Part shown: positions 4,854 through 60,880 of the stretch, piece after piece
Layout of the letters: the number at the start of each line of letters is the position of its first letter
Numbering within the stretch: position 1 is the stretch's first letter
Assembly (NCBI GenBank): GCA_963921795.1
Contig: OY997659.1
Coordinates: forward strand, 50,057,475 to 50,121,474
Direction of reading: 5' to 3'
Length of the DNA: 64,000 nt
Source of the DNA: Nannobrachium achirus
Taxonomy: Eukaryota; Chordata; Actinopteri; Myctophiformes; Myctophidae
Program-made: the position numbers and the translations under genes
Notes under the pieces: model-generated
Databases searched by the model: none
Told to the model about the DNA's origin: nothing
Seen by the model: only the letters and a program-made list of their open reading frames with translations

Positions 4854-5417
4854 CCCATTCAGAACGGGTACGTACACACTATTGTGTATTATTATTTTAG
4901 GCTTTAACTACTGAAAAATAGCAGATCTACAAGCTCACAGCGCAGCACCGAGTGCCGCGCTGTGAGCTTGTAGATCTGCTATTTTTGAAAAATCGTGACA
5001 TTTTAAATTTTGACCCGATGTGTCTTTTGAATGCTTCTAAGGTTTTTTGAAAAACCTATGTTTCTATGTCAGCAATCTGGCCGGCCATCGTCAAAGAAAA
5101 GGTCCTTTTCACTTAACTGGAGCTCAGTTAGTCGGTTCTTGAGAGACTACTACGGGTATGTCAGTGGTTCTCAAACCTTTACATGTGAAGGACCCCCAAA
5201 ATGATATGTATTTGGCCAGGGACCCCCATCTCAAAATATTTAGTTCCAGGGACCACCCAGAAGCAACATTTGAGTTACAAACGTTCGCTTTGAAAATACA
5301 TATATTCAAAGATTTGCACACATTTTCACGACTTTTTCAAAAATAGCAGATCTACAAGCTCGTATATCTGCTATTTTTCACTGGTTAAAGCATTCAATAA
5401 TTCTAGGCCTTAATGGG
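4854..5417 (+). mobile_element. TTAA-flanked piggyBac-like MITE, family A, complete
   Basis: TTAA duplications at 4850-4853 and 5418-5421 flank ends CCCATTCAGAACGGGTA and the inverse of CCCATTAAGGCCTAGAATTA. The 564-bp interior holds two core palindromes (4914-4986 and 5338-5379) and a block beginning CAGTGGTTCTCAAACC that resembles a hAT left end. Ends starting CCC at TTAA are typical of piggyBac elements. Position 5120 supplies the empty site for the large insertion at 60881-63955. Confidence 0.8.
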
Positions 5418-5639
5418 TTAAGTATATTTTGATGCATCTTGAATACAGTACTTTGAATTTTAACATTGCATTTCAACATTGTGGTATCGTGACTTTTACT
5501 TACTGTAAATGGAAGCATTGGAGTGCATTTCCCACCACTGGGCAGCAGTGATCTGTAGCTAGCAGTGAATAACCCAGGCCATTCTTCATCCATAGTCCCT
5601 GGCCAGCTGTACACCTGGCCGGGGACCAGGGATGAAGAC

Positions 5640-6060
5640 TAGCCTCTGGGTTCATTCCGGCATATTTTACAATAATGTTTATTAATATATTATGCACTGT
5701 CCCTGAGAAACAAACCCCAGACAGACAAAAAATAAAAAGCATGCCAGGAGAGAAGTTCCATTTTCAATGTTTGAAAAGTGCATTTTCTGGCCAATTATAT
5801 GTGAACAACAGTACAAGCATAAGCCTAATCCCTCAAACCAGGTCGAATTATGTTTAAACATGATTTATGCTCCCCTAAGTAGACTGCCGAAAGGAATACT
5901 AATTTATAGGCCTATTTTAGTTTTTCTTTTAGCTTGGTATTTTCCTTCTCCAAACAATCCAGTTCAAAACCTGAACGAATAATCAAATAAATTCCTGGTT
6001 GAATGAATCTTTGAGCAAACTCATGATCATGATGTTCAAACGCTGTAATGTAGAAATTAA
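5640..6060. repeat. Fragment of a repeat also present at 13850-14690
   Basis: Shares CAGGTCGAATTATGTTTAAA and ACATGATTTATGCTCCCC with the sequence flanking the insertion at 14043-14598. It gives the empty TTAA target for that insertion. No coding sequence. Confidence 0.7.
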
Positions 6061-6064
6061 TTGC

Positions 6065-6325
6065 AATATATATATATATATATATATATATATATATATA
6101 TATATATATATATAACGGAGGTGATCCGAACCTCCCCACCCGGCTTCGTACCCGGGTCTCCCACGCAAAAGTCCAATATCTTAACCACTAGACCAAAGAG
6201 ACATCTCTTTGGCCCGAGGGAGATACTAGACTTTTGAGGCTTCAAGGCTGGGGCTGCGACTCTCTCCGTCACACACATATATATATATATATATATATAT
6301 ATATATATATATATATATATATATG
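6065..6325 (-). mobile_element. tRNA-derived SINE-like sequence between two (TA)n tracts
   Basis: Reading the minus strand from about 6202 to 6128 gives TTTGGTCTAGTGGTTAAGAT, a Pol III A box with tRNA D-arm, then CCCGGGTACGAAGCCGGGT, close to a T-arm B box. Acceptor stems are not convincing, so it is a tRNA-derived retroposon or pseudogene, not a functional tRNA. (TA)n runs lie at 6065-6114 and 6277-6324. Confidence 0.6.
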
Positions 6326-6907
6326 CACATTTTCTTTCTTTATTTGTATTGTAGCCTTGTGCACGTTTATTATGAGCTGTCAGGCTGCTACGCTGGGATA
6401 TAGGAAGGTATAAGCTAGCTAACAGAGCTGTTATCACAGTCAGATAGAAACCATGCTGTCGGGTGAAAACCTTGAATGTCCAAAACTGATACTTTTCAGG
6501 AAAAAGAAAATACAAATAACAATAGATGGCTCCGATGCAGTTTCGATTTAGTCAAGTTCTTGTACTGTAATATTTATAAAACCTGACATTTATAAAAGAC
6601 CACCACTTTTACTTTCTCTTTAAAAAAAGAAAAATCAAAAAACTATTTCCAGCCGACAGGGACGATATCATATTTTCCACGCGGAGCCTACACTACAGAG
6701 CCACCCTTCCTCATCCCAAAATACTATGTCTGTGCTCCTAATTTGCAAGCTAGGAATAAAAAAAAAAAAAAAGGGTCTCATCTATTCTTAGCTGTTGCAT
6801 TTTTATGCCGCCGTTCTGGTTCTGGTTTCCCACTAAACAGTAGGTACCCTGTGTGCGTGTGCGTGTGCACGTGCCCGTGCGTGTGTGCGTGTGGCCCGTC
6901 CCCTCAC

Positions 6908-7259
6908 CAGTGGAGACCTCCTCCTTGTGCTGGGTGGAGGTGTGCAGGGTGGAGACCTCCTCCTTGTGCTGGGTGGAGGTGTGCAGGGTCAGGCGTATCC
7001 GGCTGCTGCTGATCTGCAGCTCCAGTCTCCGGGGCTCCGGGGCCAGCCGGGCGGAGAGCAGCAGGCCGTCTGGGTTCCACGTACGGAACTGGAAGCGCAC
7101 GGAGAAGCCCTGAGCCGCCGCCGCCGCCGCGCCGCCAGACACGGCCGCCGCCGTCGCTGCTGTCGTCGTCGTCGCCGGGAGCGACAGGAAGCTGCTGCTG
7201 GAGCTCAGGAAGGTGGAGGTCACCAGCTGGGGGTCCGAGCACGAGAAGGTCACGTTGCC
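6908..7259 (-). CDS. cntnap5: Caspr-like exon: laminin-G domain 2, with two insertions
   Basis: The exon opens with GNVTFSCSDPQ after a TCTCCCAG acceptor, passes SFLSLP, then SVRFQFRTWNPDGLLL (laminin-G 2 core), and ends EEVSTG with the terminal G split by a GTGAGG donor at 6907. At 352 bp it is longer than I expect. An Ala/Thr-rich segment (7112-7183) replaces what is normally about eight residues after the Leu-Pro, adding about 48 bp, and a perfect 39-bp tandem duplication (6911-6988) adds 13 residues before the donor. Removing both gives 265 bp, the length I recall for this exon in the family, and the phase is unchanged. The frame is open throughout. The acceptor's pyrimidine tract is a (CT)n microsatellite (7268-7328 on the plus strand). 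Confidence 0.9.
6911..6988 (-). repeat. Perfect 39-bp tandem duplication in coding sequence
   Basis: Units 6911-6949 and 6950-6988 are identical base for base. Each encodes the 13 residues LHTSTQHKEEVST. The second unit in transcription order directly precedes the splice donor. Identity of the copies implies a recent event, or one kept uniform. Confidence 0.95.
7112..7183 (-). repeat. In-frame Ala/Thr-coding GC-rich insertion in the LamG2 exon
   Basis: On the minus strand this stretch is built from GAC/GGC/GCG-type triplets and encodes runs of Thr and Ala with one short GG. It replaces a short loop in LamG2. The triplet composition suggests replication slippage inside a coding exon. Length relative to the family (+16 residues) is from memory. 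Confidence 0.8.
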
Positions 7260-58873: not shown

Positions 58874-59133
58874 TGTGTAACACATCCAGCGTCAGGAGGT
58901 CTTACGATATGGACTAGGGCTATCCTGCCCACCACGGCAGTATAACTGTAAGACCCATTCTGGAAAGGACAGATGAGAAGGGAAAGAAAAGGCAAGATGA
59001 AGGCTAGCCATATCGCACAGTCTTATCCAGGGTTGTATTTGCTGGGGGGGGGGGGGGGGTGGATTCAGTCATTTTGACTGAGGTTTTCATACCGCAGTGC
59101 TGCCATGACAACTGGATGTCCTTGTGGGATCAA

Positions 59134-59946
59134 CAGTGTTGGGTGTAACGGCGCTATAACTAACAACGTTACGTAGCGCCGTTAGGTTTGGTGTGGTAGC
59201 GGAGTAACTTAACGAGTTACTTCTGCAATTTAGTATAGGATCGTTACCGGTTACATTTCCCAAAATATAGCGGCGTTAATTAGGTATTTAAGACCTATAA
59301 TTCCCTGTTTTTTCTGTTGCCACAAGGGAAAAATAAATCCATCTGACACATTTGCGCTGTTTCCTGAATGAGCTCTTCTCTCTCTGTCATAGAAGGAGCC
59401 TGAAGAGGCATGCATGCACGCATCATGGCCCGCATTTTTACACGGAAAAATGTGACCAACCAGAAATGTGTTGCCAGCCTGTGGTGGTTGCGTAGTCATT
59501 CTACAATTTACGACAGGCTACGAAATTTGGTGTAACTTGGAGTTACTTGCGGTCATCTGACTATTAGCGAGTTAAGAAGAACTTTTTGCGTGTCTTACAA
59601 TTTACATGGCAGGGCTTGAGTAAGGCTGTGGAAGGATTCACACTATTTTCGGATTTACTTGGTGAAAGGAATAAAGGATACATCAACGTCATTACATTAT
59701 CCACGTTGAAGCTGCACGCAGACAGCCACGCACACAGCTGACAGCCATAACAATCCGGTAGGCTGCACTCTTTTTTATGTTTACCAAACTTTCTCACAGT
59801 GGGTTTTAATGGTCGGTAACGGTAACGGGTAGCTTGTTAAGTTACAATTGTCATTGGGTAGCGGAGTAACGTAACGGTTAGTTTTTCAAGTCAGTAACTA
59901 AAGTAAACTAACGAGTTACTTCAAAATGTAACGATACCCAACACTG
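59134..59946. mobile_element. hAT-like element CAGTGTTGGGTGTAACG with 8-bp duplication
   Basis: GGGATCAA at 59126-59133 and 59947-59954; ends CAGTGTTGGGTGTAACG and TAACGATACCCAACACTG. 813 bp, no transposase seen. Confidence 0.94.
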
Positions 59947-60102
59947 GGGATCAACAGAGTGTTTTTGTATCTATTGAGGAAAATAAGGCACCTACGGAAA
60001 AAAGAACAAAAAAAACGAAAAAACAATAATGTGACCAAGGGTCGTAAATCAGTGGTTTTCAATGTCAAAAATAGATCGATCTACAAGTGTGTTCTTGTCA
60101 TT

Positions 60103-60296
60103 AAAAATCACACCCAATGTGAAGTGAGCGGTTGTCGTGCTTGCATAACGTCTTCAGACTAGGATTTAAGTAGTCTAGGATGTACAGGCTATGCTACACA
60201 CACACACACAATGCTATGGCAAAACGCTGTAGAGAGATGGCTACAGACACACACACTCAGCCACTCTATGGAGCGGTTTACCACCGCTCAAAAATG
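60103..60296. repeat. Family L copy
   Basis: TCACACCCAATGTGAAGTGA/GCGGTTGTCG and GGTTTACCACCGCTCAAAAA bracket about 190 bp including short CA runs. Confidence 0.75.
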
Positions 60297-60654
60297 TTTG
60301 AGAGCCGCAGTTGTAAAAAAAAGAAAAAAAAAAGAAAAATCCTGAACTGCATTTCTAACATTGGGCAAAAACATGTATCAATATCATACTTAGAAGTATG
60401 ATATTAAAAAATAGCTAAATAGAAACCTTTTGAGTATGTCTGGCCCTCAAAAACACAATTCCTTTGTGTGAAAGAAGAAGAAGAACAAGAAGGATCTTTG
60501 CATTTCTATAAGGCTTGGCACTGGTGCAGTGGGCTCTAAAAATAGCAAAAGTATCAGATCCACAAGCTCAAAACCGAAGCTTCGCACGGCGCTTCGAGCA
60601 TGTACATGTGCTACTTTTGATGCTTTTGTGTGACACTGTAGTTGGGGCATTAAT

Positions 60655-60880
60655 AACCCATTCAGAACGGGTACACATTATTGTGTATCATTATTTTATG
60701 CTTAGTGCCGCGCTGCGAGCTTGTAGATCTGCTATTTTTGAAAAATCGTGAAAATTTGAATTTTGACCCGATTCTATAAGTGTCTTTTGAATCCTTCTAA
60801 GGTTTTTTTTTTAAAAACCCTATGTTTCTATGTCAGCAATCTGGCCGGCCATCGTCAAAGAAAAGGTCCTTTTCACTTAA
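60655..60880 (+). mobile_element. Family A left half, split by the 3.1-kb element
   Basis: AACCCATTCAGAACGGGTAC to AAAGGTCCTTTTCACTTAA. The right half resumes at 63956-64000 (TTAACTTGAGCTCAGTTAGT) and leaves the window. Confidence 0.9.

Follow-up and report, generated by a model that had tools for sequence, protein, structure and literature searches.

A hairpin palindrome common to MITEs of different superfamilies in the genome of Nannobrachium achirus

MITEs of the hAT, piggyBac-like and Tc1/mariner-like types have terminal repeats with 8-bp, TTAA or TA duplications, respectively, and to our knowledge a palindrome is no part of the definition of any of them. Two groups of described sequences, coral CMITEs and organellar palindromes, may be regarded as precedents for the sequence analyzed here. 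According to the sections of the reports drawn on here, CMITE families of Acropora differ in their terminal repeats but have in common a conserved internal region of ~75 bases, which is more alike than the ends and is of unknown origin (PMC2872659). CMITEs show TTAA duplications and piggyBac-like ends; A. millepora is estimated to carry 1,600 copies, and a role of the internal region in transposition was proposed (PMC2872659). The GC clusters of yeast mitochondria are short, gene-free hairpins that occur in many copies and undergo merging and shuffling (PMC4478555), and the organellar palindromes of Volvox are likewise short, gene-free hairpins in many copies, whose nuclear copies were called inert (PMC2670323). 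In addition, template switching at inverted repeats homogenizes arms and inverts spacers (PMC8604942; see also PMC8794818).

Here, we examined a stretch of 64,000 nucleotides (the window), in which a palindrome of ~74 bp recurs, as it does in the genome. It is a near-perfect hairpin with the arm TGAAAAYAGCMGATCTACAAGCTCACARCGC and a variable tip; the core is conserved and its outer boundary is sharp, and the flanks are unrelated. The single-strand DNA fold of the copy at 44597-44674 was -37.2 kcal/mol (z -12.2). Exact 20-bp arms occurred 134,293 times genome-wide (67,315 + 66,978) and 18 times in the window, and the reversed-pattern control gave no match in the genome. Loose arm matches (up to 5 edits) numbered 95 in the window versus 8-17 in ten Markov simulations. 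With a 30-position weight matrix, the window gave 74 arms, 200 kb sampled elsewhere gave 99, and three shuffled sets gave none. The 74 arms formed 48 sites, 25 of them two-armed, which is consistent with the preliminary description of about 45 copies or half copies; a palindrome was also present in all eight intervals quoted there as examples. A looser list contained 72 palindromes, 29 of which were in the window. Extrapolation from twenty 10-kb stretches, hand-picked at round coordinates on C1-C20, gave 0.82 million arms in the genome (standard error 0.17 million). The only known family returned by an RNA-family search of the window was the UnaL2 tail, and no match was found between 44098-44700 and a plasmid collection. 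The palindrome thus resembles the organellar ones in being short, multicopy and without a gene. However, those of yeast and Volvox are organellar, whereas the present one is borne by transposons, no direct repeats of its own were found, and its location is nuclear, as the window lies within contig C22 of the 1.66-Gb assembly.

The palindrome was internal to at least seven flank groups of MITE type. Among these are hAT types, whose duplications are 8 bp long, along with one TTAA/CCC and one TA/TCGTC type. These hosts were MITE-like, with terminal inverted repeats and a constant target duplication, and resembled hAT, piggyBac-like and Tc1/mariner-like MITEs in both. The ends and duplications came from an automatic search, many other rows of which appear spurious. 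Duplications of 8 bp were found at the hosts 28191-28652 (CCCACGCA on both sides), 32883-33537 (CATGACTC) and 21213-21798 (GCCCAGAA), and also at L005:3746-4213, L012:4283-4707 and L012:7753-8225, with 7 of 8 bp matching at L015:2601-3086; the host 4854-5417 had a TTAA duplication, and 35210-35472 and 40608-40865 had TA. All five window hosts for which the preliminary description had named a hAT, TTAA or TA duplication therefore retained it on checking. The GGGGTCTTCAA type was likewise a host, but not a separate kind: it is another hAT family, represented by L012:7753-8225 with the 8-bp duplication ATCTACAC. F7 was dropped as an independent family because L013:1648 clusters with F2. All hosts were shorter than 700 bp, and a Pfam scan for transposase was limited to six open reading frames of the window; hAT dimerization domains were plentiful in the genome (1653 candidates, 150 of them scored). 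The features of the window are as follows (coordinates, strand sign, description):

4911..4989 (.) palindrome in F1 element 4854-5417 (TTAA/CCC ends); second, shorter one at 5338-5376
14079..14159 (.) palindrome, F1 TTAA type
15055..15107 (.) palindrome, F7 (GTGGAAACCTCATTTTGTCC upstream; F2-like by eye)
16681..16757 (.) palindrome, F1
20533..20606 (.) palindrome, F4, orientation inverted
21310..21366 (.) palindrome in hAT element 21213-21798 (target duplication GCCCAGAA); centre-deleted relative at L001:1400-1700
25119..25194 (.) palindrome, F1 hAT type; second, shorter one at 25407-25451
28263..28339 (.) palindrome in F1 hAT element 28191-28652 (target duplication CCCACGCA); half copy at 28555-28584
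32962..33042 (.) palindrome in F1 hAT element 32883-33537 (target duplication CATGACTC); second at 33335-33393
33904..33976 (.) palindrome of F2 element, nested in hAT-type element 33666-34220 (target duplication ATATTGAG)
35328..35390 (.) palindrome of F2 element 35210-35472 (TA/TCGTC), nested in hAT-type element 35092-35592 (target duplication CGCTAGGG)
35882..35959 (.) palindrome, F1 hAT type; second at 36157-36208
40718..40786 (.) palindrome of F2 element 40608-40865 (TA flanks, ends TCGTCRYTGTCGGG)
44112..44188 (.) palindrome, diverged F4-like context (likeness to F4 by eye)
44597..44674 (.) palindrome in F4 hAT element 44446-44892
45164..45519 (+) element G (CACAC...ACCACCGCTC), AAAAAT duplicated at palindrome edge; not a host
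45518..45594 (.) palindrome, F1, adjoining G
45593..45607 (.) 15 bp of G end, inverted copy across palindrome; mirror of 45505-45519
45918..45995 (.) palindrome, F1 TTAA type
46492..46554 (.) palindrome, F1 TTAA type
49463..49534 (.) palindrome, F10 (grouped with L019:2032 and L020:3652)
58408..58482 (.) palindrome, F5 (hAT; CAGTGGTTCTYAACC-type ends in L012)
60547..60616 (.) palindrome, F7
60710..60739 (-) half palindrome (single arm), F1

The Caccgctcaaaa family at 45164-45610, previously listed as a host, was rejected as such: G is a separate element inserted beside the palindrome, at its AAAAAT edge with AAAAAT duplicated, and a palindrome-free copy is present at 34354-34619. An apparent template switch was observed at 45505-45607, where 15 bp of the G end are mirrored across the palindrome. 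G occupies the same AAAAAT edge in two F1 copies (45164; L007 near 8100-8378), which would suit the earlier suggestion that transposons insert into the palindrome by preference; but the copy at 34354-34619 shows that G also uses an A-run without the palindrome, and the palindrome has fixed places within its hosts. Because it is internal to them, target preference is unsupported as the reason for sharing and an unlikely cause of it, and we consider it exceedingly improbable that the palindrome is such a target.

The preliminary description had stated that no module needs to move if the host families align with each other outside the palindrome. This was the case for the F1 group: TTAA-type and hAT-type F1 elements have 176-177 bp in common outside the palindrome (88-90% identity), so these F1 elements are a single interior bearing different ends. 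F2, F4, F6 and F10 did not align in this way; with the palindrome masked, these four and the 21213 element had no match to any other representative (E 0.01), and F3 and F5 showed weak matches of 19 and 52 bp, to F1 only. Thus, descent of all hosts from one element with repeatedly replaced ends, for which the two kinds of F1 element would speak, is refuted by these alignments outside the F1 group, barring very diverged homology, and is very unlikely as a general explanation. The hosts and CMITEs are alike in that an internal region is shared by families with different ends. CMITEs are of the TTAA/piggyBac type, whereas the fish hosts include hAT and TA types; and the fish module is a near-perfect hairpin with ~0.8 million arms, whereas the CMITE sections consulted describe no palindrome. 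No report of one palindrome common to MITEs of different superfamilies was found among titles and abstract openings of the open-licence literature.

Genome-wide, anchors of F2 were found at 60-90 bp spacing in 8,201 copies versus 203 at 0-30, and those of F4 at 70-100 bp in 4,773 versus 215 at 0-30; the counts cover these long and short size classes, and reversed-pattern controls gave 0. By hand count among 100 listed short forms each, the commonest F2 classes were TAGT-joined (7) and AACAGCTGTT (5), and F4 had AAAAATATTTT (9), a direct GCCAAAGAG joint (6) and a clean joint (2). The short forms listed resembled deletions, with centres lost at microhomologies. Since long forms, which have the palindrome at a constant position, greatly outnumber these deletion-like short ones, the palindrome was probably already present in the family founders, which these copies support well for F2 and F4 and more weakly for F6.

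Target duplication of the palindrome itself was absent at 2, 3, 5, 6 and 8 bp and seen in one case at 4 bp among 14 representatives with one boundary definition, and the short forms listed contained no convincing class of empty sites within host families. The earlier suggestion of an independent mobile module thus finds no backing as far as present-day transposition is concerned. Clean joints in F4 (10 of 19 classified; 20 fetched of 40 matches) and F6 (L023) had pointed to duplication-free insertion of the hairpin into the middle of small palindromic targets, but this idea was dropped. The F4 excess was discounted because the query itself held that joint; an unbiased pattern gave the 2 clean joints in 100 listed, and clean copies formed no separate group (0.109 among themselves, 0.121 to remnants and 0.137 to filled copies). 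It is also rather unlikely that the palindrome is, or was in the past, an independent snap-back MITE served by an unidentified transposase, inserted once per early host and then amplified within the composites. The sharp conserved core between unrelated flanks, the abundance of arms (~0.8 million) and 21 of 109 sites without a flank relative at other sites in 264 kb (for example, L018:5700 and L002:5359) are in keeping with such an element, but direct flank repeats at the tested boundary (at most 1/14), the lack of an empty-site class and the few, ungrouped F4 clean joints are not, and the flanks are mirrored instead.

Across 62 palindromes, the two arms of a palindrome differed at 3.02 of 26 positions versus 4.50 when permuted (lowest of 1000 permutations, 3.92), and family-typical substitutions were mirrored in both arms. 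Homogenization is incomplete, as positions 9, 13 and 23 were unequal in 20, 20 and 27 of the 62 palindromes. Adjacent flanks were mirrored in 57 of 112 cases versus 36.6 permuted (P 0.0002; 14 representatives). At the tip, CGCACCGCG replaced CGCGGTGCG in 10 of 100 listed F2 copies (hand count), and both GCT and AGC were present in F4. Arm homogenization, albeit incomplete, and spacer inversion are thus common to this hairpin and template-switch repeats, and the mirrored arms and flanks, inverted tips and microhomology deletions fit hairpin template switching and show that the palindrome evolves as a hairpin. It should be noted that published template switching, in the sections consulted, concerns single local repeats and not the joining of unrelated transposons. 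Two loci were F2-left/F4-right fusions joined within the palindrome, and a third, inverted join was seen as a pattern match alone; control spacing gave 0. No F2-left/F6-right fusion was found, F6 being apparently a small family. Hence the proposal that the palindrome is a piece spread by recombination between MITEs gained the F2/F4 cases but none from F2/F6, and direct support for this route is thin.

We give a probability of about 45% to the reading that the palindrome is a passenger hairpin, carried and spread by many non-autonomous DNA transposons and swapped among MITEs through errors of copying or through repair. A polymerase may stall, or repair begin, at the hairpin and the template may then switch to the opposite arm or to another of the copies, which number in the hundreds of thousands; the palindrome could serve as a universal joint because every other copy matches in both orientations. 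Gap repair that meets another copy after transposon excision might yield a shortened element centred on the hairpin, which could be amplified by transposases of the host's own superfamily, and a transposase of the palindrome's own would be unnecessary. Against the passenger hairpin, fusions are rare (3 versus thousands) and immobile as they stand because their ends are mismatched, the step to a founder with matching ends is a proposal, no F2-left/F6-right fusion was found and arm homogenization is incomplete. Inherited subfamilies, instead of repeated inversions, could account for the two tip forms, and the sharp outer boundary of the core is compatible with an inserted element as well.

Another explanation, which we regard as quite unlikely, is that the palindrome acts as a functional cassette, be it an enhancer of transposition, a site for a host factor or a shield against silencing: carriers would dominate because the palindrome boosts amplification of any MITE, and the route of entry would be secondary. 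Arms varied less than flanks in F2 (0.077 versus 0.196), F4 (0.093 versus 0.152) and F5 (0.065 versus 0.098), with rough flank alignments, but were equally variable in F6 (0.043 and 0.049). Interspersed repeat bases with at least 15 relatives in the sample lay within 300 bp of an arm in 65% of cases versus 20% for background (37-49% at lower depths), but since the arm had served to find the families, this test involves some circularity. A transposition role was also suggested by the CMITE authors (PMC2872659, in the sections consulted); hosts with different ends and duplications, however, should need different transposases.

Returning to the passenger hairpin, a bolder form of it is conceivable, if on the improbable side: a selfish nuclear hairpin without transposase or target duplication of its own, which hitch-hikes in DNA transposons, crosses superfamilies by template switching or recombination because self-complementarity allows any two copies to pair, and seeds new MITE families. 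If true, it would be a nuclear counterpart to the organellar selfish palindromes, with a very high copy number. The finding bears on the birth of MITEs and on why their interiors often match no autonomous parent, and a module that crosses superfamilies, together with fused halves, suggests a testable route in which hairpins act as joints in gap repair or replication.

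The 20-nt arm quoted in the preliminary description is real and enormously repeated: in the searched assembly (1,658,514,493 bases, with the window in contig C22), 67,315 forward and 66,978 reverse exact matches were found, versus 0 for a reversed-pattern control. A 30-position weight matrix identified 173 arms in a 264-kb sample (74 in the window and 99 in 20 ten-kb stretches at hand-picked round coordinates) and none in three shuffled sets; extrapolation from the 20 stretches gave 0.82 million arms genome-wide (standard error 0.17 million). These matrix-defined arms comprised 62 facing pairs and 49 single arms, and grouping yielded 109 arm sites (48 in the window), while a looser search recovered 72 two-arm palindromes. 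Folded as single-stranded DNA, four window examples reached -37 to -41 kcal/mol (z-scores -12 to -15).

Conservation dropped sharply beyond the core edge, RAAAAYAGC. Clustering of the 110-bp outward flanks defined families F1-F6, and single-linkage clustering of 150-bp flanks separated F10 as a further component.

Host families of the palindrome, with characteristic ends or flanks
F1: TTAA/CCC ends and CAGGGGCGTCACA ends; frequently two palindromes
F2: TCGTCRYTGTCGGG ends with TA
F3: CAGTGGTTCCCAAAC-like flanks
F4: CAGGGGTCTTCAAC
F5: CAGTGGTTCTYAACC
F6: CAGTGTTGWTTTTG
F10: separate component (150-bp flanks)

Thus, at least seven flank groups could be recognized; F7 was not counted as a family of its own because one of its members clustered with F2. 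The single-linkage analysis lumped 83 of the 109 sites together, probably because elements are nested in one another, which makes seven a lower limit for the families. hAT-type F1, F4 and F5 showed perfect 8-bp duplications, and F6 a 7/8 match, in an automatic search of which many other rows look spurious; the superfamily names are presumed from end motifs and duplication lengths. It had been proposed that alignment of the hosts outside the palindrome would point to one ancestral element. When 12 representative stretches were compared with the palindrome masked (E 0.01), this held within F1, three elements of which matched mutually over 176-196 bp (88-90%), and F1 elements gave further matches to F7 (a stretch of 51 bp), to F3 (19 bp) and to F5 (52 bp at 79%). 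The remaining pairs among the 12 gave none at this threshold. One hairpin is shared by unrelated hosts.

F2 elements are nested in two distinct elements of hAT type (window 33666-34220 and 35092-35592), each bounded by a perfect 8-bp duplication. Since L018 has flanks in common with the first of these, a nested composite may have been amplified. The palindrome at L018:9480-9760 has outer flanks (about 50 bp, ...TTTGCATAGGAAAGGGTACAG) that are inverted copies of a repeat also present in L007 and L011.

One supposed host, the 'Caccgctcaaaa' family, proved to be a separate element, G, which sits in F1 copies at the edge of the palindrome, where its insertion duplicated AAAAAT. Its insertion sites are A-runs, with AAAAAT or AAAAA on either side.

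Element G (CACACTTGTGTGAACTGAGCGGTGG...ACCACCGCTC) and other features of the window and sample
34354-34619: G copy without palindrome, holding TG and CAGA microsatellites
45164-45519: G copy in an F1 copy
L007, about 8100-8378: G copy in an F1 copy
19450 and 60280: G end motif only
41153-41504: distinct large inverted repeat with 28 nt between its two 162-nt arms, which are 92% complementary
52457-52992: nested inverted repeats, arms 121 and 78 nt; perhaps another MITE-type element
9081-9252, 15855-16311, L010:6914-7067 and L015:109-364: repeat TAGCGCCACCATGAGGC..., at least six relatives in the sample, here >300 bp from any arm
39633-39687, strand -: UnaL2-type LINE 3' end; nothing else in Rfam passed the threshold
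16306-16653 and 17990-18334, strand -: Laminin G domain exons (Pfam), perhaps from a contactin-associated-protein-like gene; with the UnaL2-type LINE end, these exons suggest a teleost fish

The palindrome evolves as a hairpin. Across 62 palindromes, arms differed at 3.02 of 26 positions within a palindrome versus 4.50 of 26 between palindromes (lowest value in 1000 permutations, 3.92), and family-typical changes at positions 0, 5, 18 and 21 were present on both arms. This likeness is incomplete, as arms differed at positions 9, 13 and 23 in 20, 20 and 27 of the 62, respectively. In 14 hand-chosen representatives under one boundary definition, bases just beyond the core were mirrored at 57 of 112 positions versus 36.6 in permutations (1 of 5000 as high). 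Tips were found in both orientations with the flanks unmoved: in the 264-kb sample, F1 had 13 one way, 2 the other and 17 unclassified, F2 had 5, 2 and 13, and both orientations occurred in F4. Among 100 listed F2 copies, 10 were full-length and carried CGCACCGCG (counted by hand). At window 45505-45607, fifteen bases of element G are repeated inverted across the palindrome. Alike arms, mirrored flanks, two tip orientations and the inverted G bases are the marks expected under template switching at inverted repeats, which is described as leaving alike arms and inverted spacers (PMC8604942).

An old transposable snap-back element remains a rival origin for the palindrome. Direct repeats at the core boundary were absent or present in 1 of the same 14 representatives, unlike yeast GC clusters, which are described as having short direct repeats (PMC4478555). 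A selected cassette also remains a rival: arms varied less than flanks among copies of F2, F4 and F5, but not of F6, and the F1 values (0.030 versus 0.478) mix subfamilies.

Halves of two families are fused at two loci. The pattern F2-left, 60-90 bp, F4-right occurred twice in the genome, and both loci were read: the F2 half extends from near its terminal repeat as far as the palindrome (71-89% identity with the window copy; broken by a ~100-bp insertion at L054), the F4 half runs from the junction to its end (81-87%), the junction lies within the palindrome, and the surroundings differ by eye. The fused products have mismatched ends. Neither F2-left with F4-right at a control spacing of 100-130 bp nor F2-left with F6-right was found in the genome; F2-left with inverted F4-left gave one match, its F2-side edge partly missing in the 80 letters seen. 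Joining across families at the palindrome thus occurs, rarely.

The following counts cover copies with two exact flank anchors at the stated spacings. Genome-wide, F2 anchors lay 60-90 bp apart in 8,201 copies and 0-30 bp in 203; for F4, 4,773 copies fell at 70-100 bp and 215 at 0-30 bp. The short forms listed (100 of 203 and 100 of 215) were scattered centre-out deletions, and recurrent ones used short direct repeats: by hand, F2 showed a TAGT joint in 7 and symmetric AACAGCTGTT in 5, and F4 showed AAAAATATTTT in 9, a direct GCCAAAGAG joint in 6 and a clean joint in 2. Clean F4 joints had at first been taken for empty sites, a view that did not survive an unbiased pattern test. For F6, 40 of 564 joined-flank candidates were scored, by a ranking that favours clean joints, and 12 loci were cut out, including the window's own copy (L029); 10 retained palindrome pieces or its edge, L023 had a clean joint, and L032 had lost the core together with some of the left flank. 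An inner palindrome fragment without outer GAAAATAGC lies at L020:319-348, near a hAT-like start, CAGTGTTTCTCAACC. Because long forms dominate and short forms are centre-out deletions, the palindrome was most likely already part of each family's founder, as is strongly suggested for F2 and F4, and its loss is by deletion.

No report of a palindrome common to several MITE superfamilies appeared among the titles and abstract openings listed by the literature searches. The nearest precedent found, the CMITEs of Acropora corals, comprises six families with differing terminal repeats, TTAA duplications and a common internal region of about 75 bases (PMC2872659). Organellar palindromes are described as gene-free multi-copy hairpins like the present one, but they sit in organelles (PMC4478555, PMC2670323). 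Cod hAT MITEs with inverted repeats lie at inversion breakpoints (PMC12368964), which suggests that such elements recombine ectopically in fish. In this genome, the hairpin could pass from one transposon to another when template switching or the repair of a break there uses other copies as the template, and new MITEs could be built around it by the gap repair that follows excision.
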